A stretch of 64,000 nucleotides of DNA, taken from the NCBI RefSeq assembly GCF_030824455.1, contig NZ_JAVBXR010000117.1, positions 1 to 64,000 of the forward strand, written 5' to 3'. Within the stretch, counting starts at the first letter, position 1, and each line of letters starts with the position of its first letter. The DNA is from Desulfobulbus sp. (GTDB lineage: Bacteria > Desulfobacterota > Desulfobulbia > Desulfobulbales > Desulfobulbaceae). The notes under the pieces are model-generated. The model had not been told where the DNA came from and ran no database searches. It saw only the letters and a list, made by a program, of their open reading frames with translations. Both the position numbers and the translations under genes were made by a program. This document shows, in pieces, positions 40,688-64,000 of the stretch.

Positions 40688-41333
40688 CAGCAAACTCCTT
40701 AACGGGAAATTATACGCAGTTGTGAGCCGTTGCATGCAGTTGGCGGTTTTGAGGCGCTGGCTTCGCGGGTCCGCAAAATCTGGCGTCTTTTTGTGACGCC
40801 CGCGATCTGAGGCCCGTCTTCTGACGCCGGCGCGACGCCTTGCGATTTCTCCGGCACAGGCCAAACGACAACCAGAAACAAACTCAACCTGAATGCAGAT
40901 TGCAATGATTCAGTGCTCGGCCAACAAGCCCAGCGGTTCAACCGGGCGAAAACGTTCTCGCAACGCCCCTCGTCCGCAGCTTTAAACACTCCCACCAGCC
41001 GGTGCGCGGAGGGTCTTCAGCCGGCTCCACTGTACCTGGGCGCTTGTTTTTTTCAACCTTCGGGCAACACACAACGACAATCCGCCTCCCCTTCTCCCAA
41101 GCGGCTCCCCTCTTCTTTACCCGGCACCCACACGCTTCGTCCAAACGCCGAACTTCGTTCCATTCAACCCCGTTGCCGAACCGCAGGACAAACAATCCCT
41201 TGCAAAAATTAACAACAATTTGACAATGTTTTCGCGTTGTGCGTCAATGAACCAAGAACAAGATACGTTCTCACCAACCCCCAAACGCCAGATCCTATCT
41301 GGCTTACAACTCGCAGCAAGGAGACAATGCACA
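40688..41333. other. 646-bp intergenic region before the chemoreceptor genes
   Basis: No gene or RNA that I can recognise. The right end has a possible promoter TTGACA (41220-41225) with a weak GTCAAT 17 bp downstream, and an AAGGAG ribosome site before the receptor start. I looked for a c-di-GMP riboswitch and a sigma-28 motaxis promoter and found neither. Confidence 0.5.
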
Positions 41334-42998
41334 ATGTTAAAAAATTTCAAAATCGGTTCACGATTGGGCTTGGCCTTTGGGCTTATTCTGGCGCTGATGA
41401 TGATTGTCGGCGGCTACGCGATCAAGGACATCAAATCCCTGGACAAAGATATCGACGAGCTGGTCAACAACCGAATGGTCAAGGTTGAGCAGCTCAACAT
41501 CATTATCGACAACATCAACCTCCTGGCCCGCTCCCTGCGAAACATCATTATCGACGACAACAAAGACCATCAAGCCGATGAAATGCGAAGGATTGCCGAA
41601 GCCCGCAAAAAAGTGGGAGAACTCATGGCGGAGTTGGAGAAGACCATCACCAACGAAAAAGCCATTGTGCTTTTCAATAAAATAAAAGAGGCGCGGGGGG
41701 AATACGTTCGATCCACCGAGGCCTACATGGAATTGGTCAAGGCCGGGCAGAGCGAACAGGCAAAGAAGATGCTGCTCTCCGAAATTCGCCAAACGCAAAA
41801 GCCCTATTTGGATACGCTGGAAGAGTTGATCATCCTCCAAACCAACCTCGCCAAGAAACTGGGCGCAGCGGCCGGCGAGGCAGCCTCTGCCGCAACCACC
41901 ATCATCTCGGTGCTGCTGGGAACAGCCCTGGTGCTGAGCATTGTCCTGGCCATTGTCATTATCCGCTCGATCACCGCCCCAGTGGGCAAGGCCTCGGCCC
42001 TGGCCGAACTGATGGCCAAAGGCGATTTCACCACCAAACTTGACATCAATCAGCAGGATGAAATCGGCCTGATGGCCAAGTCGCTCAATTCCATGATCGA
42101 GCAGTTGGCCTCGATGATCCGGGAAATCGTCGGCGGGGTCAACCAACTGACCGCCTCTTCCGCCGACATGGCCGCCGTCTCCCAACAACTCACGTCCGCC
42201 GCCCGCGACACCTCCAGCAGGTCCGAAACCGTGGCCGCCGCCACCGAGGAGATGAACGTCAATTTCCAGTCGGTTTCAGCAGCCATGGAGCAATCCACGG
42301 CCAACGTCAACATGGTGGCCTCGTCGACCGAGGAGATGACCGCCACGGTCAACGAAATTGCCCAGAACGCAGAAAAAGCGCGGTCCATTTCCGAGGGCGC
42401 GGTCAAGCAGTCGCGCCAGACCAGTGAAAAAATGGCGGAACTGGGCGAATCGGCCCGCAAGATCGGCCGGGTAACCGAGACCATCACTGAAATTTCCGAG
42501 CAAACCAACCTCCTGGCCCTCAACGCCACCATCGAGGCGGCCAGGGCAGGCGATGCCGGCAAAGGCTTTGCGGTGGTCGCCAACGAGATCAAGGAACTGG
42601 CGCGGCAGACCGCCGAAGCCACGGTGGACATTAAAAACCAGATCAGCGAGATGCAGCGCACCACCGCCGTCACGGTCGAGGACATTGAGCGCATCTCCGA
42701 GGTGATCGTTGAAATCAACAACGTCATCAACGGCATCGCCACCGCCGTGGAAGAACAATCCGCCGCCTCCAGTGAGATCGCGGGCAACATCTCCCAGGCC
42801 TCGCAGGGCATTGCCGAGGTCAACGAGAATGTGGCCCAGTCAACGGTGGTTATCGGCGACATCGCCCGCGACATCGCCCTGATCAACCAACAATCGACCC
42901 AGGTGGACAACGGCAGCGGCCAAGTCCAAGCCAGCGCCCAGGGGTTGTCGGCCCTGGCGACGCAACTGGAAGGACTGGTTAAGCGGTTTAAGGTTTAG
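41334..42998 (+). CDS. Methyl-accepting chemotaxis protein 1
   Basis: A 554-residue chemoreceptor. The N-terminal membrane helix is at about 10-30. A periplasmic four-helix-bundle sensor domain (about 31-188) follows, then a second membrane helix at about 190-213, a HAMP domain to about 265, and a long cytoplasmic coiled coil. The signalling tip contains the conserved [21 protein letters not shown] stretch near residue 390. No C-terminal CheB/CheR-tethering pentapeptide; it ends LVKRFKV. Start ATG at 41334 with AAGGAG upstream. The next gene is a paralogue with a nearly identical cytoplasmic part (41985-42998 matches 43694-44713). Confidence 0.93.
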
Positions 42999-43042
42999 CA
43001 TGGCGTGATTTGCGCCAACACACAACACAAGGGGGAGCGTGT

Positions 43043-44713
43043 ATGAACTGGTTCGTTAATTTGAAAATCGGGCAAAAGTTGTTGATGGTTGCAGTGCTGG
43101 CTTCGCTGACCCTGGGCGGACTGGGCGGCTTTTTCATCAGTCAGATGCGCACGGTGTACGACGCGGCCAATTACGGCAACATCAACACCGTCCCCAGTTT
43201 GGAGGTGATGTTTCGCATCGTTGAAGGCAGCAAGGATTTCTACATCTCCACTCTGCGCCACATCCTGAACACCGACGCGGCGGGCATGGCCAGGATGGAA
43301 GACCTGATCAACAAGGCGCAGGCAAATACCGAAAAGGCGCTGGCTGATTATGAAAAACTGATTTCTGACGACACCGACCGGCAGATGCTGGCCACCGAGC
43401 GCGGCTTGTTCAGCGACTTTGTCCGCGCCGAGCAGGAAATGCTTCCCCTGTCCCGCGCCAACAAGACCGAAGAGGCCCGATTCGTGCTGCGGGAAAAAGG
43501 CCTCCCGGCGCAGGAAAAATTGAGCAAGTCGCTGGAAGAACACATGGCCTACAACATGAAATTGGCCAGCGCCGGCGACAAAACTGCCGCAGATCTGTAC
43601 AGTTCGGCGCGACGCAACGGCATCATCGTCATTGTGGTCGCAGCGATTGTACTGTTCACCGTTGTCGTCCTGATCAGCCGCTCGATCACCGGGCCGGTGG
43701 CCAAGGCCTCAGCCCTGGCCGAACTGATGGCCAAAGGCAATTTCACCACCAAGCTCGACATCCAGCAGAAGGATGAAATCGGCATGATGGCCAAGTCGCT
43801 CAACAGCATGGTCGAGCAACTGGGCGGCATGATCCGGGAGATCGTTGGCGGGGTCGACACGCTCACCTCTTCCTCCACCGATCTGGCGGCGGTTTCCAAA
43901 CAGTTGTCGTCCGCAGCCAAAGACACCTCGGCACGGGCCGGCACGGTTTCGGTGGCCACCGAGGAAATGAGCACTAACGTCCAATCGGTGTCGGCGGCCA
44001 TGGAGCAATCCTCGGCCAACGTCAACATGGTGGCCTCGTCGACCGAGGAGATGACCGCCACAGTCAACGAGATTGCCCAGAATGCAGAAAAGGCGCGCTC
44101 CATTTCCGAAGGCGCGGTCAAGCAATCGCAGCAGGCCACGCAAAAAATGGCCATACTGGGCGAGTCGGCGCGCAAGATTGGCCGGGTGACCGAGACCATC
44201 ACCGAAATTTCCGACCAGACCAACCTGTTGGCCCTCAACGCCACCATCGAGGCGGCGCGGGCCGGAGACGCGGGCAAGGGCTTTGCGGTTGTCGCCAACG
44301 AGATCAAAGAACTGGCGCGGCAAACCGCCGAGGCCACGGTGGACATTAAAAATCAGATCGGTGAAATGCAGAGCACCACCGCCACCACGGTGGAGGACAT
44401 TGAACGCATTTCAACGGTTATCGCCGAAATCAACAACGTCATCAACGGCATCGCCACCGCCGTGGAAGAGCAGTCCGCCGCCTCCAGCGAGATTGCCAGC
44501 AACATCTCCCAGGCATCGCAGGGCATCGCCGAGGTCAACGAGAACGTGGCCCAAACCACGGTGGTGATTGCCGACATCAGCCGCGACATCGCCGGCATCA
44601 ACGAGCAATCGACCCAGGTGGAACAGGGCAGCGACCAGGTGCAGGCCAGCGCCCAGGGGTTGTCGCAACTGGCCGTGCAACTGCACGATCTCATCAAACG
44701 CTTCAAGGTCTGA
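43043..44713 (+). CDS. Methyl-accepting chemotaxis protein 2
   Basis: A 556-residue paralogue of the receptor just upstream, 44 bp away and probably cotranscribed. It has membrane helices at about 10-30 and 190-213, a periplasmic four-helix-bundle domain that differs clearly in sequence from that of receptor 1, then HAMP and a signalling domain almost the same as receptor 1, with [21 protein letters not shown] at the tip. It ends LIKRFKV. The pattern suggests a tandem duplication followed by divergence of the sensing part only. A GGGGGAG site precedes the ATG. Confidence 0.93.
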
Positions 44714-45206
44714 CCGTTTTCCCGCTCCGGGCGGAGTCCGACGCCGGATTCCGCCCTCCCGCCCTTTTTCCCTGCCGCCGCTCTTCCTTTGCAGTTATCT
44801 GGCTGCCCTGCAGTGGCCGACGCCTTCCCGGAGAGGCTTGACCGGACGCTCTCCCGCGTGGCCACGCTTGTCGCGTTGAGGACCAAAAAGCAGAAAACAC
44901 CTTAACCGCAAAGCCGCCGCAGACTGCTGGAACGCCTGTTCCAGGCCCTTACATTTGCTCAGGCGCATGGGCGCGCGTCCTGCACCTCAAAAACCACTCA
45001 AAGCCGCATTATTTTTTGCATTCACTTGGCAGCGCCGGAGCCATTATTCGCCGAGACAAACGCCAGACACCGTTTCCCTGAAAGGCCTGTCACACAAGCA
45101 ATTTGCCTCAGGTTGCGCTTGTTTCTGACCTGCCCTCTGTGGTACAAAGAACCAACAATTGAGGCGAAACCCCAGTTGAATGCTTTTCCTTTCCCGGAGC
45201 ATCACC
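44714..45206. other. 493-bp intergenic region after the chemoreceptors
   Basis: Its left part carries the receptor terminator. The rest, up to the kinase at 45207, shows no gene, RNA or strong promoter that I can recognise. Confidence 0.5.
44729..44769 (+). terminator. Rho-independent terminator of the chemoreceptor pair
   Basis: A 12-bp stem with one G-T pair (44729-44740 with 44745-44756), GGGCGGAGTCCG and its complement, closes a 4-nt loop. A T-run follows at 44765-44769. Confidence 0.75.
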
Positions 45207-48074
45207 ATGCAAGACACCAGCCCCTCACCGACCAACCCGGAACTGAACCTCCAGTTCGTTTTGGACGCCTCGCCGGTGGCCATGCTGGTGTTCAACCACC
45301 GGGAAGAGATCATCCTGACCAATGCGCCCGCACATCGGCTGTTCGACCTTGCCGCCAACACCGGGCGACCACGGAAGTGCGGCGATTGTTTCCGGTGCGC
45401 CAACCGTCTCAAGGAGGCCCTAGGCCGCGGCCATTCTCCCCTCTGCCCCGTTTGTCCTCTCCTTAAGGATCTGCGAACAACCCTTGCCGCCACGGCAACA
45501 GAAAGCCTGGAAGGAGAGGCGCAGTTTGCACGCGAACCAGACGGCTCCCCGTTCTGGATCCGTTACAAGATCACCCCCCTGAGCATCTCCGACAAGCCTG
45601 CCGCCCTGCTCACCCTGGACGACATCACGGCACTGCGACACTCCGAGCGGCAATATGCCGTGCTGTTTCATGAAATGCTCAACGCCTTTGCCTTACACGA
45701 GATACTCTGCAATGACCAGGGGCAACCGGTCGACTACCGTTTTCTCGAGGTCAACCCCGCCTTTGCGCGCATGACCGGCCTCAAGGCCGACCAAGTGGTG
45801 GGACGCACGGTCCGGAGCGTTATTCCCGATCTCGACGAGCACTGGATACGCACCTATGGCCAGGTGGCCCTGACCGGTCAGCCGGTTCGTTTTGAAAGCT
45901 ACTCGCCCGAGGTGGGCAAACATTTCTTGATCAACGCCTTCAGTCCGACACCCGGCCAGTTCGCCACCCTGTTCGAGGACATCAGCGACCTCAGGCTGGC
46001 CGAAGCCTCCCTCCAAGAAAACGAGGCCCGTTTGCGTGGCGTCACCAATTCGGCCAAGGACGCCATCGTGATGATGGACCCCGCCGGTCGCATCTCTTTC
46101 TGGAACCCTGCCGCCGAAGCCCTGTTCGGGTACACAGAGGAGGAGGCCATGGGAGCGGATCTCCACCGGCTCCTTGCGCCGCCACGCTTCCTGCATATCT
46201 ATCAACAGGCATTCTCCGCATTTCAGCGGACAGGGCAAGGCAAGGCAATCGACGCCATCATTGAGCTTGCCGCCTGTCATAAACAGGGCCATGAAATTCC
46301 CATCGAGCTGTCGCTTTCCGCCCACCACCAAACGGACGGCTGGCATCCAATCGGTATCCTCCGCGACATCAGCGAACGCAAACAGGCGGAACAACTGGTC
46401 CGGCGCAATGAGGAACGGTTGCGGAAACTGGTGGAAATTCTGCAGCACCCGACCGACACCTCCCAGGAGTTCCTGGATTACGCCCTTGAACAGGCCATTC
46501 AACTGACCGGCAGCACCATCGGCTATATTTACTATTACGATGAGCAGCGGGAACAATTCAGCCTCAACTCATGGTCCAAAGAGGTCATGCCCGCCTGCGC
46601 CGTCGTCAATCCGAAAACCTGCTACGCCCTGGCGCGCACAGGCATTTGGGGCGAAGCGGTGCGACAGCGCCGTCCGATTGTGGTCAACGATTTTCAGGCC
46701 GCCGACCCATTAAAACGGGGGTACCCGGAAGGTCACGTTCCCCTGCGCAGATATATGACGGCGCCGATATTCAGCGAAGAACGGATTGTCTGTGTCATCG
46801 GCCTGGCAAACAAGGAGACCGAGTACGATCAAACCGATGTGCTGCAGACTTCCCTGCTGATGGAAACCGTGTGGAATATTGCCGAGCGTAAACGGGTGGA
46901 GGAAGAACAGAGGCGGCTGCAGACGCAGCTCAACCATGCCCAGAAGATGGAGGCCATTGGCGCCTTGGCAGGCGGCATCGCCCATGATTTCAACAACATT
47001 CTCAGCGCGGTTCTCGGCTATGCCGAGATGGCCAGAGACGACAGCCCGCGCAATTCAATGGCCGCCAAGGGCATGGAACGAGTTCTGGAAGCAGGCGGCC
47101 GGGCTGCGGCCCTGGTCAAACAGATCCTTGCCTTCAGCCGCGAGGGGAAAAGCGAACGCATCCCGGTCGATCCCGGCAGCATACTCAAGGAAGTGTCCAC
47201 ACTGCTGCGCCCCAGCCTGCCTTCCACCATCACCATTCAACAAAAAACCGCCGCCACCCGAGCCATTCTCGCCGATCCAACCCAGATGCACCAGATTCTC
47301 ATGAATCTCTGCACCAACGCCTTCCACGCCATGGAGCAGACTGGCGGCGCCTTGGAAATCGCCATCGAGCAGGTGACCCTGTCGGCAGCCGATCTCAGCC
47401 GGCAGCCAAGCATCGCGCCCGGAGATTTTGTGATGCTCTCGGTGTCCGACACCGGTCCGGGCATTGCGCCGGAAATCCGCGACCGGATTTTTGAGCCTTA
47501 CTTCACCACCAAGGGAGTCGGCCAGGGCACCGGGTTGGGCCTTTCCATTGTCCACGGCATCGTCACGGAATACGGAGGCTTCATTACCTGCGAGAGCGAT
47601 GCGGGCAAGGGCTCGATCTTCCGAGTCTTTATCCCGACCATCAACGACCTGGCCAGCCTTGAACACCAGCCAGCCGAGCCGGTCCCGTCCGGCAGGGAGC
47701 ACATCCTCTTGGTGGACGACGAACAGCTCCTTGCCGAAATGGGCCAGTCCATGCTCGAACGGCTCGGCTACGAGGTGACCGTCCACGCCAGCAGCGCCGA
47801 CGCCTTGGCCGATTTCCAGAGGTATCCGAACCGGTTCGATGCGCTGATCACCGATCAGACCATGCCGGGCATGACCGGCCTTGCACTTGCCCGGCGGATA
47901 CTGCACCTCCGTCCCGACCTGCCGATCATCCTCTGCACCGGATATAGCAGGCTTGTCGACGAGGATCAGGTCCGGAGTTGCGGCATCAGAGGATTTGTCA
48001 TGAAACCATTCTCCATAAAAGAGGTGGCCGCCCTGCTCAGGACAGTGTTGGACACCAGCGACGATGCGGCCTAA
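45207..48074 (+). CDS. Multi-PAS/GAF hybrid histidine kinase with Cys-rich first PAS
   Basis: A 955-residue cytoplasmic hybrid kinase; GGAG lies 7 nt before the ATG at 45207. Order: PAS 1 (about 12-135), PAS 2 (140-260), PAS 3 (272-390), GAF (415-560), HisKA with GGIAHDFNN near 590, HATPase_c (680-800; [16 protein letters not shown]), and a C-terminal receiver (825-945; LITDQTMPG with the phosphoacceptor Asp). PAS 1 carries a cysteine cluster C58-x2-C61-x2-C64-x15-C80-x2-C83 that could bind a metal or iron-sulfur centre, suggesting redox or metal sensing. Its last 11 bases overlap the start of a decayed kinase gene. Confidence 0.9.
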
Positions 48075-48569
48075 TCTCGACCAGCTGGCCCAGCTCAGAC
48101 AGACGCGGCAGGATCTGCTGGCCATCATCAACGCCTCGCCCGAGGCGATCTTCCTGATGCGACCCGACGGCGCCGTCATCCTGGCCAACGAGGCCCTGGC
48201 CAGACGGGTGCGCACCCCCGTCGAGCAGCTTCCCGGCCGAGACATTTACAGCTTTCTGCTACCGTTCACCGTAGCTGACGGGCGGGACCATCTGGGAGGT
48301 GGAGACCCAAGGACGAACCTCGACCTGGCAACACCGTCTGCCTCATCCGGGTGCTGCTCCGCCATGACGACGGCAGCTACCCCCTGATGGTCGCCGAAAA
48401 CGGGATCGGCCGGCCGCCGGAGCTGAATTGGACCCAAACCCGAACCCAGGGCATTACCCTGGTCCGCATGCCGGGCCAGAATCAACTCGGCGGCCGCTAT
48501 ACCCTGGATGGGCGGGACGGCACGGCCCTGACCCTGCACTTCACCCCTGAAACAAGGAAGCGCCCATGA
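48064..48569 (+). pseudogene. Decayed HisKA_2-type histidine kinase (internal deletion and frame change)
   Basis: The first part (ATG at 48064, to about 48270) encodes a good start of a PAS domain: LLAIINASPEAIFLMRPDG, then ILANEALARRVRT. The frame then turns into unrelated sequence and stops at 48387. From about 48321, in another frame, the C-terminal end of an HATPase domain appears (AENGIGRPPELN, MPGQNQLGGRYTLD), matching the end of the kinase at 63437-64000. The phosphoacceptor region and the N box are missing. Its remnant stop codon still overlaps the next gene start (ATGA at 48566), as in the intact cassette. It is therefore a deletion remnant, not a working kinase. Confidence 0.82.
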
Positions 48570-51500
48570 ACCACGCCACGCTGCTGATCGTCGAAGACGA
48601 CGGCATTCTCGCCGCCAACCTTGAGAACACCGTTCTCCGTCTGGGATACGCGGTCCTTGGCCCGGTGGCCACCGGCGAGGAAGCGATCGCCGCCCTGGAC
48701 GCCCATCAGGCCGATCTGGTGCTCATGGACATCGAACTGGCCGGCGCGCTCAACGGCATCCAGACCGCTGAAATCATCACCCGCTCGCGGGATATTCCGA
48801 TTGTCTTCCTGACCGGCTTTTCCCAGGATCGCCTGTTGGAACAGGCCAAGATTGCCGCGCCCTACGGGTATCTGATCAAACCGGTCCCGGAGCGCGAACT
48901 GGCTGCGACCCTGACCATGGCCCTGCATCGGCACGCCCTGGACCGGCAGCTCAAAGAGAGCCGCGAAGCCCTGGCGCAGAGCGAGGCCCGCTATCGCAAC
49001 CTGTTTGAGCATTCGCCCCTGGGCATCTTCCGCTCCACCCTGGACGGCAAGGTCCTGTCGATGAATCCGGAGATGGCGCGCATGCTCGGCTGCGCCTCCT
49101 CGGAGGAGGGAGTGGCGCACTTCACCGATCTGGCCCGCCAATTCTATGTCGATCCTCATCGCCGCACGCAGTTCACCGAGGCCCTGCTGGCCCGGGGAAA
49201 CGTCCGGCACTTCGATTGTCAGGCCCGGAAAATAAATGGCGAACCGGTGTGGATTTCCCTCAACGCCCGTTTGGCCCCGGAAGATGAGGCCAGTCCCCAC
49301 CACGGCGATCTGGTCATCGACGGCTTTGCCCTGGACATCAGCGAACGGAAATTGGCGGAACAGGGCCTGGAGGAGAGCGAGCAGCGCCATCGCACCTATC
49401 TGACCACCACCCCCTACGGGGTGTTTGCCATCGACCTCGAGAAACGGTTTGTGCAGGTCAACCCGTCCGCCTGCCGGATCACCGGCTACGCGGAGCAGGA
49501 GTTGCTAACCATGACCATCCACGACCTCTACTGTGCGGAGGATCGGGCCGAAACCGAACGCCACTTCCAGACGGTGCTCAAGCAGGGCCAGTTTCAGGGC
49601 GAGCTGCCGTTTCGCACCAAAGACGGGGAACGCCGTTGGATGTCGCTCACCGCGTGCAAGGTGGGCCCGCAACGGGTGGTTGGATTCTGCCACGACATCA
49701 CTGAACGCTTGCGGGCGGAGGCGGCCCTGCGGGAAAGCGAAACCAATTTCCGCAATTTTTTTGCATCGATGACCGACATGGTCCTGGTCGCCGACCTGGA
49801 CGGCAAAATTGTGACCGCCAACGAGATGTGTTGCCACACCCTGAGCTACAGCGTCGATGAACTCAAGGGGTTGCCAATTGCCGACCTCCACCCCGCCGAG
49901 CAACGCCGGGAGGTGGTGATGTGCCTCTCCTCCCTGTTGCGCGGGGACTCCCGTGACTGCCGCCTGCCCCTCCGCGCCAAGAACGGCGACCTGGTGCCTG
50001 TGGTTTCACGGGCCTGGTTCGGCTCCTGGGATGGAGCGGACTGCCTCTATGCCACCTGCCGGAATTTGAGCGACGAGCAGGAATTGGAACAGCGCTTTGA
50101 ACGGTTGTTCCGCCATAATCCCGCCCTCATGGCCCTCAGCACGGCGGACGACCAGCGCTTTGTCGACGTCAACGAAGCTTGGCTGGAGACCACCGGCTAT
50201 TCCCTGGCAGAGGTCATTGGCCGGACAGCGAGTGAACTCAATCTCTTTCCCTGCCCGGAACAGCAAGAACAGGCGGCGGAGCAGTTGCGGCGACACGGGC
50301 GAATCACCAACATCGAGATGCAGATCCGCTGCAAGGACGGCGCCCTGCGCCACGGTCTCTTTTCTGGGGAACAGATCCGCAGCCATGGCCGGTTCTCTTT
50401 CCTCACCGTGATGATCGACATCACTAAACGCAAACAGGCCGAGCAGCAACTGCGCACCACCCTGGAGCGGGTGCAGATCATTCTTTCCAGTCTGCACACC
50501 GGTATTCTGCTGATCAACAGCGAGAACCGGGTTGAATTCGTCAACCCATCCTTCTGCACCCTGTTTGATCTTGACCAAAGGCCGGAAGATCTCATCGGCC
50601 TGTCCGCCTCGGAGTTGATCCACAAAACGGAGGGGATGTTTGCCGATCCCGACAATATGGCAAACCGCATCCGAGAGCTCGTCGCCCAACAGCAGCCGGT
50701 ACAAAATGAACCCATCGCCATCAAGGGGGCGCGAACCTATCTGCGCGACTTTATTCCCATCACCATCGGGCAGGCGGAACATGGCCGTCTCTGGCACCAC
50801 TCTGACATCAGCGAGCGCAAACGGGCCGAGGACGCCCTGGAGAAACGGATGATCGCCCTGGTTCAGCCACTGGACAGCACCGATGATCTAGCCTTTGACG
50901 ACTTGTTCAATCTGGAACAACTCCAGCGCATCCAGGATGCATTTGCCTCTGCCGCCGGCGTGGCTTCGATCATCACCCACACCGACGGCCGGCCCATCAC
51001 CAGGCCCAGCAATTTCAGCCGCCTCTGCTCCGACATTATCCGCAAGACAGACATTGGCCTGCGCAACTGCCGCCGCTCCGATAGCCTGATCGGGCAGGCC
51101 TGCATCAACGGCCCAACCGTGCAGCCCTGCCTGAGTTGCGGCCTGTGGGACGCGGGCGCCGGCATTACCGTCGGCGGCCGACACATTGCCAGCTGGCTGA
51201 TTGGCCAGGTCCGCGACCAAACCCAGACCGAGGAGCGGATGCGGGTTTATGCCCGGGAGATCGGCTCCGACGAGGAGCAGTTCATCGAGGCTTTTCGCGA
51301 GGTCCCGACCATGTCGCGCGACCAGTTCGAGAAGGTCGGCCAGGCCCTTTTCACGCTTGCCAATCATCTGTCGGCCTCGGCCTACCAAAATGTGCAACAG
51401 GCACGATTCATCACCGAGCGCAAGAGGGCCGAGGCGTTGCTGCGGGAAAGCGAGGCCCGCTATCGTGAACTGGTGGAAAACGCCAACAGCATCATCCTGC

Positions 51501-52987
51501 GCATGGACAATGAGGGCAGGTTGCTCTTTTTCAACGAATACGCCCAACGCTTTTTTGGCTACCAGGCCGACGAGGTGATCGGCAAAAGCGTGATCGGCTC
51601 CATCGTGCCCGAGACCGAGTTCACCGGCAGGGATCTGCGGGGCATGATCGCTGACCTTGGCCACCGGCCCGCCCGTTATGCGACCAATGAAAACGAAAAC
51701 ATGCGTCGGGACGGCAGCCGCGTCTGGGTCTCGTGGACCAACAGACCACTGTACAATGCCCAGGGCGAAGTCAGCGAAATCCTCTGCGTGGGCAACGACA
51801 TCACCGACCGTAAACGCGCCGAGGCGGAGACGCGGCAGTTACAGGCCCAGCTCATTCAGGCCCAGAAACTGGAGGCCATCGGCACCCTGGCCGGCGGCAT
51901 CGCCCATGATTTCAACAACATCCTCGCCGCGGTCATCGGCTATGCCGACATGGCCAAGGAGAGCGTTCCCCCTGAAAGCCGCGTGGCCAAGGACCTGGAA
52001 CAGATCCTCAAGGCAGGCCATCGGGCCAAAGACCTGGTGCAGCATATACTTGCCTTCAGCCGTCAGGCAGCGACCGAGCCGGTCACTCTCTATCCGGCGC
52101 TCATCGTCGGCGAGGTAATCAAGATGCTTCGCCCCTCGCTGCCGTCCACCATTGCCATCGAGCAGCAGATCGACAGCAAAGCCGGGCCGGTGCACATCGA
52201 CCCCACCCAGTTGCACCAGATTCTGATGAACTTGTGCACCAATGCCTATCACGCCATGGAGGAGACCGGCGGCCAACTGACTCTTGGCCTCGCCACCCGC
52301 CAACTCGATGCCGAGGAGGCCAGCCTCCAGCCGCAGGCGCAGGCAGGCGCCTATGTCCAGCTCACGGTCGCCGACACCGGCTGCGGCATCGCCCCGGACG
52401 TCCGGGAACGGATCTTCGATCCCTTCTTCACCACCAAGGAAACCGGCAGGGGCACCGGCATGGGTCTTTCCATCCTCCACGGCATCGTCGCCGGCAATGG
52501 CGGCTTCATTACCTTGGACAGCGCGCCGGGCCAGGGATCGGTGTTCCGCGTCCACCTGCCCGTGGCGCCCCCGGCGCCGGTGGTGGAAGGCGCCCAGAGC
52601 GAACCGACGCCGGTCGGCAGCGAACATATCCTGTTCGTCGACGACGAGGAAATCCTGACCACCATGACCCAAACCATCCTCGAACGGCTCGGCTACCGGG
52701 TGACGGTGCGCACCAGCAGCCTCGAGGCCCTGACCACCTTTCACAATCAACCCGAGCAATTCGACCTGGTGATCACCGACCAGACCATGCCGGGCATGAC
52801 CGGAATGGACCTGGCCCGCCGGATGATCCAGATACGACCCGATATCCCGATCATTCTCTGCACCGGTTACAGCACCCTCATCTCGGAGGAGAAGGCTAAG
52901 GCCCACGGCATCCGTGGCTTTGCCCTCAAACCGATCACCAAGAACGACCTGGCGGTACTGATTCGCACGGTGCTCAAAACGCCCTGA
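48566..52987 (+). CDS. Giant receiver-first multi-PAS/PocR hybrid histidine kinase
   Basis: A 1473-residue protein. Order: receiver (1-125, phosphoacceptor Asp55 in LMDIELAG), five PAS domains (about 135-750), a PocR-type ligand domain (about 770-940; FNLEQLQRIQDAFA, CLSCGLWDAG, Cys-rich), another PAS (955-1080), HisKA with GGIAHDFNN near 1110, HATPase_c (1200-1320; DTGCGIAP, GTGMGLSI), and a C-terminal receiver (1350-1470). No membrane helix. The N-terminal receiver is a close paralogue of that in the protein at 61827-63440. Its natural upstream kinase is decayed, so the N-terminal receiver may now be orphaned. PocR domains bind small hydrocarbon-like ligands in other proteins. Confidence 0.9.
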   Translation: MNHATLLIVEDDGILAANLENTVLRLGYAVLGPVATGEEAIAALDAHQADLVLMDIELAGALNGIQTAEIITRSRDIPIVFLTGFSQDRLLEQAKIAAPYGYLIKPVPERELAATLTMALHRHALDRQLKESREALAQSEARYRNLFEHSPLGIFRSTLDGKVLSMNPEMARMLGCASSEEGVAHFTDLARQFYVDPHRRTQFTEALLARGNVRHFDCQARKINGEPVWISLNARLAPEDEASPHHGDLVIDGFALDISERKLAEQGLEESEQRHRTYLTTTPYGVFAIDLEKRFVQVNPSACRITGYAEQELLTMTIHDLYCAEDRAETERHFQTVLKQGQFQGELPFRTKDGERRWMSLTACKVGPQRVVGFCHDITERLRAEAALRESETNFRNFFASMTDMVLVADLDGKIVTANEMCCHTLSYSVDELKGLPIADLHPAEQRREVVMCLSSLLRGDSRDCRLPLRAKNGDLVPVVSRAWFGSWDGADCLYATCRNLSDEQELEQRFERLFRHNPALMALSTADDQRFVDVNEAWLETTGYSLAEVIGRTASELNLFPCPEQQEQAAEQLRRHGRITNIEMQIRCKDGALRHGLFSGEQIRSHGRFSFLTVMIDITKRKQAEQQLRTTLERVQIILSSLHTGILLINSENRVEFVNPSFCTLFDLDQRPEDLIGLSASELIHKTEGMFADPDNMANRIRELVAQQQPVQNEPIAIKGARTYLRDFIPITIGQAEHGRLWHHSDISERKRAEDALEKRMIALVQPLDSTDDLAFDDLFNLEQLQRIQDAFASAAGVASIITHTDGRPITRPSNFSRLCSDIIRKTDIGLRNCRRSDSLIGQACINGPTVQPCLSCGLWDAGAGITVGGRHIASWLIGQVRDQTQTEERMRVYAREIGSDEEQFIEAFREVPTMSRDQFEKVGQALFTLANHLSASAYQNVQQARFITERKRAEALLRESEARYRELVENANSIILRMDNEGRLLFFNEYAQRFFGYQADEVIGKSVIGSIVPETEFTGRDLRGMIADLGHRPARYATNENENMRRDGSRVWVSWTNRPLYNAQGEVSEILCVGNDITDRKRAEAETRQLQAQLIQAQKLEAIGTLAGGIAHDFNNILAAVIGYADMAKESVPPESRVAKDLEQILKAGHRAKDLVQHILAFSRQAATEPVTLYPALIVGEVIKMLRPSLPSTIAIEQQIDSKAGPVHIDPTQLHQILMNLCTNAYHAMEETGGQLTLGLATRQLDAEEASLQPQAQAGAYVQLTVADTGCGIAPDVRERIFDPFFTTKETGRGTGMGLSILHGIVAGNGGFITLDSAPGQGSVFRVHLPVAPPAPVVEGAQSEPTPVGSEHILFVDDEEILTTMTQTILERLGYRVTVRTSSLEALTTFHNQPEQFDLVITDQTMPGMTGMDLARRMIQIRPDIPIILCTGYSTLISEEKAKAHGIRGFALKPITKNDLAVLIRTVLKTP

Positions 52988-53174: not shown

Positions 53175-56906
<3,732 letters not shown>

Positions 56907-57072: not shown

Positions 57073-58800
57073 ATGACTAAGAATAAGAAAAAACACCTCG
57101 ATGATCTGCGCAGGCGGGCCGACGCTCTGCTGTCGTTGACGCCGAATTCTTCCGGCATGGCGCCGACGGATGATGTCAATCAAATCGTCCATGAACTGCA
57201 GGTGCAACAAATTGAGCTGGAACTGCAGAACGAGGAATTACGCAGCACCCAGAGCGCCTTGGAAGAAAGCCGCGCCAAGTATATGCAACTCTATCACCAC
57301 GCGCCCGTGGGGTATGTCGTGCTTGATTATTCCGGAATCATCATCCAGGTCAATGCAACCTTTGCGATGATGGTCAACCGTGATCGTCCGCAAATGTTAG
57401 GCAAGCCATTTCACGAGTTTCTCCTCAGCGAGGATCGGTCAATTTTCCTGGCTCGCGCCAAAGCTTTTTTCAAGAATCCAGTCGACAAGTATCTTGAGCT
57501 CCGGATCGGCAACGCGACAACTTCGACTCGTTATGTCAGCCTGAGGGCCACCCCTGGTCACCGCCCCGAGGAAGGTCAGTCGCCGCACCTTGAGGAACTG
57601 CTGCTGACGGTCACCGACATCTCCGACCGGAAAAGAGCGGAAGAGGCTTTGCGGGCATCGGAGCAGTTCGCTCGCTCGACCGTGGATGCCCTGGCCGCCC
57701 ATATCGCCATCCTGGATGCGACCGGTCATATTGTTGCCGTCAATCGTGCCTGGAGGGATTTTGGCCGCGCCAATCAAGCCGAGCCTGCAGCGGTCAGCGA
57801 AGGCGTCAACTACCTTGCCGTTTGCCGGGCGGTGCAAGGCCACGAAGCCGAAACTGCCGGAGTTTTTGCCGCCGGGATTCTCGCTGTTCTTAAAGGAGAG
57901 CGAGATACTTTTTCCCATGAGTATGCGTGTCACGGGCCGATGGCAAACAGGTGGTTCATTGGCCGGGTCAGCCGCTTTTCCGATGGAGAAGTGGTGCGGA
58001 TAGTGGTTGCCCATGAGAACATTACCGAGCGCAGGCAGCTCGAAAACAAGAACTTGCTGCTGCAGCGACAGGTCAGCCAATTGGAGAAAGAGGAAAGCCT
58101 GGGCCGCATGGCTGGGGCGATCGCCCATCATTTCAACAATCTTTTGACTGCGGTCATAGGAAATATTGAAATGGCTTTGGAGGATGTGCCTCGGGGGCAG
58201 GGGCTGAGCAGGATGCTGACGGCCGCTTTGAGCGGAGCAAAAAGAGCTGCGGAGATAAGCGGCAAAATGTTGACCTATCTTGGGGTTAATTCAACAAAAA
58301 AAGAACAGCTCGATCTTAGTGTAATCTGTCGTCAGAGTCTTCCTCTGCTGCAGATGATAACGCCGAGCGGGGGAACGATGCACGCCGATTTTCCCTCCTC
58401 AGGCCCGGTGGTCTTCGCCGACCTCAGCCAGATACAAGTGCTGCTCACCAATCTGGTCCACAATGGGTGGGAAGCCTGCGAGGGAAAAGACGGTGCCCTT
58501 CATCTGGCAATAAAAACGGTCGACGCAGCAGACATTGTCGGTCAGCACCGCTTCCCCTTTGGATGGCAACCGCAAACCGAGAAATACGGCTGTCTGCTCG
58601 TCCAAGACAACGGCTGCGGGATAAAAAACGAGGATTTGAGCAAAATTTTCGAGCCGTTTTTTTCCAGCAAATTTACCGGTCGGGGCATGGGTCTAGCCCT
58701 GGTCCTGGGTATTCTCAAGGCGCATAACAGTTGTGCAACCGTGGAAAGCAGGCCTGGGGGCGGGACAACCTTTCAGGTGTATTTTCCTGTCCAAGGCTGA
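57073..58800 (+). CDS. PAS-PAS histidine kinase
   Basis: A 575-residue cytoplasmic kinase. A coiled-coil start (about 35-65, VHELQVQQIELELQNEEL) is followed by PAS 1 (68-195) and PAS 2 (200-320). PAS 2 resembles a PAS of the upstream CheB-CheR protein (both share WFIGRV and ENITER). Then comes HisKA with GAIAHHFNN near 355 and HATPase_c (445-575; DNGCGI, GRGMGLAL). No receiver. It lies 166 bp after the CheB-CheR-PAS gene that lacks a kinase, and may act as its separated kinase partner. Confidence 0.87.
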   Translation: MTKNKKKHLDDLRRRADALLSLTPNSSGMAPTDDVNQIVHELQVQQIELELQNEELRSTQSALEESRAKYMQLYHHAPVGYVVLDYSGIIIQVNATFAMMVNRDRPQMLGKPFHEFLLSEDRSIFLARAKAFFKNPVDKYLELRIGNATTSTRYVSLRATPGHRPEEGQSPHLEELLLTVTDISDRKRAEEALRASEQFARSTVDALAAHIAILDATGHIVAVNRAWRDFGRANQAEPAAVSEGVNYLAVCRAVQGHEAETAGVFAAGILAVLKGERDTFSHEYACHGPMANRWFIGRVSRFSDGEVVRIVVAHENITERRQLENKNLLLQRQVSQLEKEESLGRMAGAIAHHFNNLLTAVIGNIEMALEDVPRGQGLSRMLTAALSGAKRAAEISGKMLTYLGVNSTKKEQLDLSVICRQSLPLLQMITPSGGTMHADFPSSGPVVFADLSQIQVLLTNLVHNGWEACEGKDGALHLAIKTVDAADIVGQHRFPFGWQPQTEKYGCLLVQDNGCGIKNEDLSKIFEPFFSSKFTGRGMGLALVLGILKAHNSCATVESRPGGGTTFQVYFPVQG

Positions 58801-61826: not shown

Positions 61827-63440
61827 TCATGGGCGTTCCGCCGCTGGCGAACAGCGTTCTGCCGGTTCCGGGCCGCGCCGCCCGTGGCCGCCGTCAATGG
61901 GCAGCCGCAGCGTGCACAGGGCGCCTTGACCGGGTTGGCTGGTGATGTCAATCATCCCCTGATGCTCCTTGATGATGCCGTGCACCACGGCCAGCCCCAG
62001 GCCGGTGCCTTTGACCTGGGATTTGGTGGTGAAGAAGGGTTCGAAAATGTGCTCCATGTCGTCTGGTTTGATGCCCGCGCCGTTGTCCTTGATCGCCAGG
62101 ACTACATATTCGCCCTCCTGCCGCGTCGTCAGGTCAATCTCGCACCCCTGCGGCGGACAGGCATCCATGGCGTTGCTGAGGAGGTTGAGGAGCACCTGTT
62201 TGATCTGATCGGGAACGGCGAAGATCTGGGGCAGGTGTTCGCCATGCGCCACGGTGAGCGTGATCCCCTTGGTTTTAAAATCGTAGGTGTTGAGCAGCAG
62301 CACCGAATCAATAGCCTCCTCCAGATGTATCAGGGATTTTTTACCGGGAGAAGGGCGGTTGAAATCGCGCAGCGAGGCGATCAGTTTTTTGATCCGGAGT
62401 CCTTCGTTGATCGCCGCCTGCAGCAGCTGGCTGTCCTCCTTGGCCATGGTGGCTCGTTTCTGCAGCCCTTTGAGGATGAGGAGAATCCCTTGCAGCGGGT
62501 TGTTGAATTCGTGGGCCACGGATGCGGCGAGTTTGCCGATGGCCGACAGCTTCTCGGCATGGAGCAACTGTTTCTGCTTCTCCTGCAGTTCCAGGGTGCG
62601 CTGCTCCACCTTGCGTTCCAGGACCTCGTTGGCCGCCATCAGCTGCGATTCAATGGCCTTGCGCCAGGTGATGTCCTGGGCGAAACCGTCGATCACCGGG
62701 CCGTCCTGCCCGGGGGTGTTGCTGGCGGCGGTGAGGCGGGCGTTCATCAAGACCCAGATGGGCTCGCCGTTTTTCTTCCGCCCCTGGTATTCAAAATTGC
62801 GCACCTCGCCGTGGGTCTGCAGCAGGTCGATAAAATTTTTGCGCTCGCCAGGGTCCGCATACAGCTGGTGCGCCAGGTCGGTGAAGGTGTTGAGGGCCTC
62901 TTCGGGACTGGCGCAGCCGAGCATGTTGGCCATCTCCGTGTTGGCGAGCAGGCTTGTGCCGTCCATGGTGGTGCGGAAAATGCCCAGTGGCGCATCTTCA
63001 ACCAGGCGGCGATACTTGGCCTCGCTCTCAGCCAGGGCCATCCGGCTCTGCTTCAACTGCTGGTCAATGGCATGGCGGTGCAGACTGATGGCCAGGGTCG
63101 CGGCCAGTTCCCGTTCGGCCACCGGTTTGATCAGATAGCCGTAGGGGGCGGTGAACTTGGCCTGTTCGAGCAGGGGCTCCTGGGAGAATCCGGTGAGAAA
63201 GACGATGGGCACATCGGATCTGCTGGTGATGATCGCGGCGGTCTCAATGCCGTTCAAGGCGCCGGCCAGTTCGATATCCATCAGCACCAGATCGGCCCGC
63301 TGGTCCTCGAGCAGGGCCAGGGCCTCTTCGCCGGTGCTTACCGGGCCGAGGACGCCGTAGCCGAGTCCCATGATCACGAACGAGAGGTTGGCGGCCAGGA
63401 TGCCATCGTCCTCGACAATCAGCAGGTTGTTGGTAGTCAT
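61827..63440 (-). CDS. Receiver-PAS-histidine kinase
   Basis: A 537-residue protein. The N-terminal receiver (1-125) has phosphoacceptor Asp55 (LMDIELAG) and closely matches the receiver of the 1473-residue protein at 48566. A PAS domain (135-265), a coiled-coil linker, HisKA with ASVAHEFNNP near 325, and HATPase_c (410-520; DNGAGI, GTGLGLAV) follow. No C-terminal receiver. Its ATG overlaps the stop of the upstream HisKA_2 kinase (ATGA), so the two are translationally coupled; the upstream kinase probably phosphorylates this receiver. Confidence 0.9.
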   Translation of the reverse strand: MTTNNLLIVEDDGILAANLSFVIMGLGYGVLGPVSTGEEALALLEDQRADLVLMDIELAGALNGIETAAIITSRSDVPIVFLTGFSQEPLLEQAKFTAPYGYLIKPVAERELAATLAISLHRHAIDQQLKQSRMALAESEAKYRRLVEDAPLGIFRTTMDGTSLLANTEMANMLGCASPEEALNTFTDLAHQLYADPGERKNFIDLLQTHGEVRNFEYQGRKKNGEPIWVLMNARLTAASNTPGQDGPVIDGFAQDITWRKAIESQLMAANEVLERKVEQRTLELQEKQKQLLHAEKLSAIGKLAASVAHEFNNPLQGILLILKGLQKRATMAKEDSQLLQAAINEGLRIKKLIASLRDFNRPSPGKKSLIHLEEAIDSVLLLNTYDFKTKGITLTVAHGEHLPQIFAVPDQIKQVLLNLLSNAMDACPPQGCEIDLTTRQEGEYVVLAIKDNGAGIKPDDMEHIFEPFFTTKSQVKGTGLGLAVVHGIIKEHQGMIDITSQPGQGALCTLRLPIDGGHGRRGPEPAERCSPAAERP

Positions 63441-64000
63441 CGTTTGCCTCGCTGTTCGCTGAAGGAGAGGGTGAAGCAGAGTCCGTCGTTCTGGTCAATT
63501 GCATACCTGCCGCCCAACTGGTGTTGGCCAAGCATGCGGACGAGCACCATGCCCAGGGTTGTGGCGCAGCTCCAGTCAAAACCAGCCGGCAACCCGACGC
63601 CGTTGTCGGCGACGCTGAGCGTGCAAACGCCTTTCTCCTGGCCCATGTGCACCTGGATGCGGCAGGTGTCCTTGCCGGGGGCGGGCTGGCCGCCCGGGAA
63701 GGCATATTTAAGGGCATTGGTCATCAGCTCGTTGACGATCATGCCGCAGGGCACGGCAAAGTCCAACGGCAGTTCCACGCCCTGAGCTTCGGTCTGGCAC
63801 TGGATGCGGGGCGAGCCGTAGGAGGTGCGCAGGTGGGAGATCAGCGCCTGGAGGTACTGCTGGAAATCGATCCGGGCCAGGTTGTCGGCACGGTAGAGTT
63901 TTTCGTGGATTAGGCTCATGCTGCGGATCCGCCCAGCCAGTTCGGTCAGGATATCCTGGCCCTGGGGATCTTCGAGCATCCGGCGCTGCATGTCCAGCAG
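63437..64000 (-). CDS. HisKA_2-type histidine kinase, 5' end beyond window
   Basis: The visible 187 codons are the C-terminal part of a HisKA_2/HWE-like kinase: the end of the dimerisation region (RIRSMSLIHEKLYRADNLARIDF) and the HATPase domain with N box VNELMTNALKYAFPGG, DNGVGLPAGFD and a final HQLGGRY segment. The N-terminus, likely with a PAS domain, lies to the right of the window. It is the intact counterpart of the decayed gene at 48064-48569. Confidence 0.88.
   Translation of the reverse strand: MLDMQRRMLEDPQGQDILTELAGRIRSMSLIHEKLYRADNLARIDFQQYLQALISHLRTSYGSPRIQCQTEAQGVELPLDFAVPCGMIVNELMTNALKYAFPGGQPAPGKDTCRIQVHMGQEKGVCTLSVADNGVGLPAGFDWSCATTLGMVLVRMLGQHQLGGRYAIDQNDGLCFTLSFSEQRGKR

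Follow-up and report, generated by a model that had tools for sequence, protein, structure and literature searches.

A probable unitary pseudogene of a HisKA_2 sensor kinase in front of a live receiver-hybrid kinase gene in Desulfobulbus sp.

Results

The 64,000-nucleotide stretch of Desulfobulbus sp. DNA analysed here (the window) carries at 48064-48569 what we regard, with a probability of about 0.88, as the unitary pseudogene of a sensor kinase in the HisKA_2 family (PAS-GAF-[PAS]-HisKA_2-HATPase), followed by a live receiver working without its old partner. On comparison with intact relatives, the remnant is most simply read as the product of a single internal, frame-changing deletion of roughly 1.4-1.8 kb. 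The features of the locus are collected in Table 1.

Table 1. Coordinates of the remnant, its neighbours and the paralogous pair within the window.
Feature	Position	Strand	Evidence
N-terminal remnant: PAS of the lost kinase, cut short	48064..48294	+	PF00989 positions 2-50/113; 42-46% identity to relatives
Deletion junction	about 48294..48303	+	PAS homology stops, HATPase homology starts, frame shifts (tblastn, full-length relatives)
C-terminal remnant: HATPase end, from just 5' of the mutated G1 box ENGIG to the C-terminus	48303..48569	+	48% identity to L028, branch 1.07
Live downstream gene: 1473-aa REC-PAS(n)-PocR-PAS-HisKA-HATPase-REC hybrid kinase	48566..52987	+	Pfam domains, motifs, REC branch 0.11
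Upstream neighbour: 964-aa PAS-PAS-PAS-GAF-HisKA-HATPase-REC hybrid kinase	45180..48074	+	Stop overlaps ATG 48064; Pfam domains
Paralogous REC-hybrid kinase, paired with the 1587-aa HisKA_2 kinase	61827..63440	-	REC 74% identical
C-terminal end of intact paralogous HisKA_2 kinase (1587-aa ORF, runs past the window edge to C18:68200)	63437..63991	-	

Two ends of one kinase gene

The PAS domain lies in the frame of ATG 48064, a start that overlaps the stop of the upstream gene, and its Pfam profile match (E 2e-4) is just short of Pfam's cut-off. It matches PAS domains belonging to full-length HisKA_2 kinases, among them the N-terminal PAS of L028 and the PAS of the organism's own 1587-aa kinase. 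The +2 frame holds the C-terminal ~87 residues of a HATPase of HisKA_2 type (about 48303-48566, with TGA at 48567-48569), which align over 87 aa with L028 (E 4e-24) and are matched by all 15 full-length or C-terminal relatives (38-50% identity, E 1e-14 to 1e-24). By these alignment scores the homology is well beyond chance, and in the profile search no Pfam model matches the C-terminal part any longer. The first-pass annotation had described such a PAS start and HATPase end joined in different frames within 48270-48330. Both the joining and the interval were borne out, and alignment with related genomes, as it proposed, gave matches of both ends to L028 and L040.

The HisKA_2 phosphoacceptor segment (PF07568, LLREVHHRVKNN) is absent from the remnant, the genome's only two matches lying elsewhere. 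The HATPase N-box (NELxTNAxKYAF) is missing as well, with homology beginning 3' of it, as the first reading had stated of both regions. The G1 box DxGxG is not intact, reading ENGIG in place of DNGIG or DNGVG. Judged by motif, the remnant would retain none of the three features of a functional HisKA_2 histidine kinase (phosphoacceptor segment, N-box and G1 box).

The best matches for both remnant ends belong to one gene type, represented by L028 (genome G021) and L021/L040 (Desulfobulbus alkaliphilus DSM 24258), whose layout, taken from their sequences, is an N-terminal PAS, GAF, one or two PAS, HisKA_2 and HATPase. In tblastn the remnant aligns with both ends of the L028 and L040 kinases and with nothing of their middle. 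At both of these loci the gene order is hybrid kinase, intact PAS..HisKA_2 kinase, REC-hybrid kinase; in the window it is hybrid kinase, remnant, REC-hybrid, the remnant occupying the slot of the intact kinase. In its C-terminal part, gene 45180-48074 shares 59% (L028) and 56% (L040) identity with the gene that precedes the intact kinase. The matches to the two ends of an intact relative come in the same order and in the same gene neighbourhood, as expected of a pseudogene. The deletion is estimated at about 470 aa with L028 as the reference and at about 600 aa with L040, the exact length varying with the relative chosen as stand-in for the ancestor. The long branch of the remnant makes its placement in the kinase tree uncertain, and its orthology is carried by synteny rather than by the tree.

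Decay of the remnant and the state of the assembly

The terminal branch of the C-terminal part measures 1.07 changes per site; the median over all rows (87 shared columns) is 0.20, and the receiver (REC) of the same locus has a branch of 0.11. Of the 25 near-invariant columns, defined as at least 90% conserved among intact kinases, the remnant has 6 altered, whereas none of the 21 intact relatives has more than 2; the changes in the remnant include D to E at the ATP-binding Asp of the G1 box, L to Q and L to P. The C-terminal part is thus under relaxed constraint relative to both its intact homologues and the neighbouring gene. Both fragments retain high GC3 (0.82 and 0.79) and the C-terminal frame is free of stops, which counts against a pseudogene, but for an 88-codon frame of this composition the same lack of stops arises in about 14% of shuffles and, with 10-20% drift, in 28-53% of simulations.

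An assembly or binning fault, in which the organism has an intact kinase whose middle went missing, for instance because repeated PAS/kinase modules collapsed, might be suspected in a draft assembly of 127 contigs with PAS linkers and HK-REC modules recurring around the locus. We consider it very improbable, because the remaining C-terminal end is decayed, where a fault should have left ends that look normally conserved, and because the lost part occurs nowhere else in the assembly. A search of the assembly for the missing middle (GAF, HisKA_2) gave no unaccounted or orphan fragment and only two HisKA_2 segments, each in an intact gene. Nor does the assembly hold a second copy of 48064-48569 that could cause a collapse; the junction lies in unique sequence, and the longer local repeats are merely 71-85% identical, with none spanning it. 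This indirect evidence favours a deletion that is real and not very recent. Scarcely any credence is due to a third account, in which the remnant is kept because it is useful, whether as a leader for translational coupling of the receiver gene, as a short PAS protein or as a frameshifted PAS-HATPase protein. It could draw on the ATGA overlap with the next gene, the open C-terminal frame, the gene-like GC3 and a C5 run right before the frame-1 stop that could in principle slip. However, the open reading frame from ATG 48064 terminates at TGA 48385-48387, about 180 nt 5' of the downstream ATG and thus before the overlap; no Shine-Dalgarno sequence is visible before GTG 48351; the PAS is severed near its middle; the ATPase part lacks its N-box and has a mutated G1 Asp; near-invariant residues are lost; and the receiver gene carries a Shine-Dalgarno sequence of its own. 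No sigma-70-like promoter or terminator was seen within the remnant. A programmed -1 frameshift linking both frames was considered and rejected, the only candidate being the C5 run right at the frame-1 stop, with no sensible product.

The downstream gene and its neighbourhood

The N-terminal receiver (Response_reg, PF00072) of the 1473-aa hybrid is presumably the former partner of the lost kinase. Its active site is kept (EDD at 10-12, D in LMDIE, T in FLTGF, K in LIKP), and the kinase core of the same protein has H-, N-, G1- and G2-box motifs. The acidic pair, the phosphoacceptor Asp, the Thr and the Lys are all in place, as in a live receiver. The early description of a dead kinase in front of a live receiver fits the losses in the kinase and the short branch of the receiver, and what was called a receiver gene does begin with an intact REC domain, although it encodes a hybrid kinase and not a bare receiver. 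The ATGA overlap also proved half right: TGA 48567-48569 does overlap ATG 48566, but this stop closes a frame without a credible start. It is no evidence of purposeful retention, because the downstream gene has its own start with a Shine-Dalgarno-like aaGGAa about 7 nt 5' of the ATG, and because kinase-receiver overlaps across the family range from -1 to +29 nt (4 nt in the organism's own 1587-aa kinase pair and in L035). The claim that the remnant had been kept found no support, given this explanation of the overlap and the decay of the C-terminal part.

Several observations concern the neighbouring genes. Residues 7-423 of the 964-aa HisKA hybrid (window 45180-46450) share 46% identity with the N-terminal part of a HisKA_2 kinase of genome G003 (L046:2542-3792), and the C-terminal 395 aa of this hybrid share 67% with the one encoded after that kinase; from these similarities, the 964-aa gene may be a fused former kinase-receiver pair or the result of a sensor module swap. 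The receiver-hybrid gene of G003 (L046:4280-5808) seems frameshifted, with a 338-aa ORF and homology that goes on in another frame, possibly through a sequencing error in a low-coverage MAG. Direct repeats at 47273-47970 and 52198-52895, at a constant spacing of 4925 nt and with 71-84% identity, correspond to the HATPase-REC ends of the hybrid kinases on either side of the remnant, ends which on this similarity are paralogous. Further downstream lie a 1243-aa CheB-CheR-coiled coil-PAS fusion protein (53175-56906) and a PAS-HisKA-HATPase kinase (57073-58800). Upstream, two adjoining methyl-accepting chemotaxis proteins (41220-44713) have the layout 4HB_MCP_1-HAMP-MCPsignal in common and are possibly a tandem duplication.

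Receivers and HisKA_2 kinases across the family

Receivers of this type (E <= 1e-30) occur in 11 of the 74 family genomes searched, in two genera, and in that set are nearly confined to the genus. Sixteen of the 24 such receivers have an intact HisKA_2 kinase immediately upstream, whereas six have none in the upstream sequence examined (G015, three in G008, G020:C290 and G021:C238, the last with only about 950 bases examined). The remaining two are one at a contig end and the window's own receiver with its remnant. Receivers without an adjacent kinase are thus not rare, and the window captures one such loss midway. A tblastn search upstream of the kinase-less receivers L022, L026, L030, L032 and L043 revealed no HisKA_2 or HATPase relics; the genes there are unrelated or of other signalling types.

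The assembly has only two HisKA_2 kinases, at C18:63437-68200 and C18:70522-73551, 15-25 kb from the receiver. Their own receivers are 74% and 69% identical to that of the window, and all have the helix 1 start GILAA in common. The two kinases and their REC-hybrids (window 61827-63991 with C18:63437-73551, locus L016) form tandem pairs on the minus strand with overlapping ends and ORFs of 1009, 822, 1587 and 537 aa.

Discussion

We propose the following sequence of events for the locus. In intact relatives, the conserved pairing suggests that the kinase phosphorylates the N-terminal receiver of the adjoining hybrid kinase. Comparison with these relatives indicates that one frame-changing internal deletion took the remainder of the PAS together with the GAF, the phosphoacceptor helix and the N-box, after which the leftover ends would have drifted, as seen for the C-terminal part. 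The receiver and its hybrid kinase appear to remain under constraint and to be translated from their own start, and the receiver would operate without its former partner kinase. It may be fed by a remaining paralogous HisKA_2 kinase, or may act unphosphorylated atop the hybrid's own HisKA core.

Rewiring, in which either remaining kinase phosphorylates the orphaned receiver and one-to-one pairs become a shared network, would extend the pseudogene reading and is compatible with it. It is plausible because two paralogous HisKA_2 kinases, the only ones in the assembly, remain 15-25 kb away; the intact active site and the similarity of the paralogous receivers point the same way, and there is precedent in Bordetella pertussis, where RisA is served by RisK after the loss of RisS (PMC5020355). 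Each remaining kinase has its own partner, however, and the six other receivers without an adjacent HisKA_2 kinase suggest that the family may not need one, so we hold rewiring only tentatively. That one paralogous kinase took over the receiver in trans and now drives two hybrid kinases is, as a specific claim, unlikely. Alternatively, the receiver may need no separate HisKA_2 kinase, acting unphosphorylated or taking its phosphate from the HisKA core of the same hybrid or from the upstream hybrid kinase. The downstream gene may indeed need no new kinase because it encodes a complete HisKA-HATPase-REC core, and other receivers of the family exist without a neighbouring HisKA_2 kinase; against this, every active-site residue of the N-terminal receiver is conserved, which suggests a continuing role for phosphorylation, and we rate this account a serious one at somewhat less than even odds.

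The closest described case is RisA of B. pertussis, and the pseudogene in the window would be a further example of this known kind. There, risS is a pseudogene beside live RisA, and the same gene is required in B. bronchiseptica (PMC5020355). In both cases the adjoining partner kinase was inactivated in one lineage and is intact in sister species, with the receiver intact. Whereas risS carries a frameshift and lies downstream of an OmpR-type regulator, the kinase gene described here has suffered a large deletion and lies upstream of a hybrid kinase; and RisK is supported experimentally as a replacement, whereas the window locus has no known one. A survey using direct-coupling scores suggested that 15-25% of two-component proteins could join out-of-operon crosstalk (PMC3090404). 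Nearer relatives are the Desulfobulbus pairs of a HisKA_2 (PF07568) kinase and a REC-headed hybrid (L028, L040, L035 and the organism's own 1587-aa and 1009-aa genes), which have the same gene slot, end domains and overlapping partner gene as the remnant but, unlike it, possess HisKA_2, the N-box and an intact G1 box. Our literature search found nothing specific on HisKA_2 hybrid systems of this group.

The case is an ordinary loss of a kinase from a two-component pair. In itself it amounts to ordinary gene decay in a large, shuffling set of signalling genes. Because one half of a conserved kinase-receiver pair has been cleanly knocked out by nature, and intact sister loci are there to compare it with, the locus can serve to examine whether a receiver that has lost its kinase acquires another.
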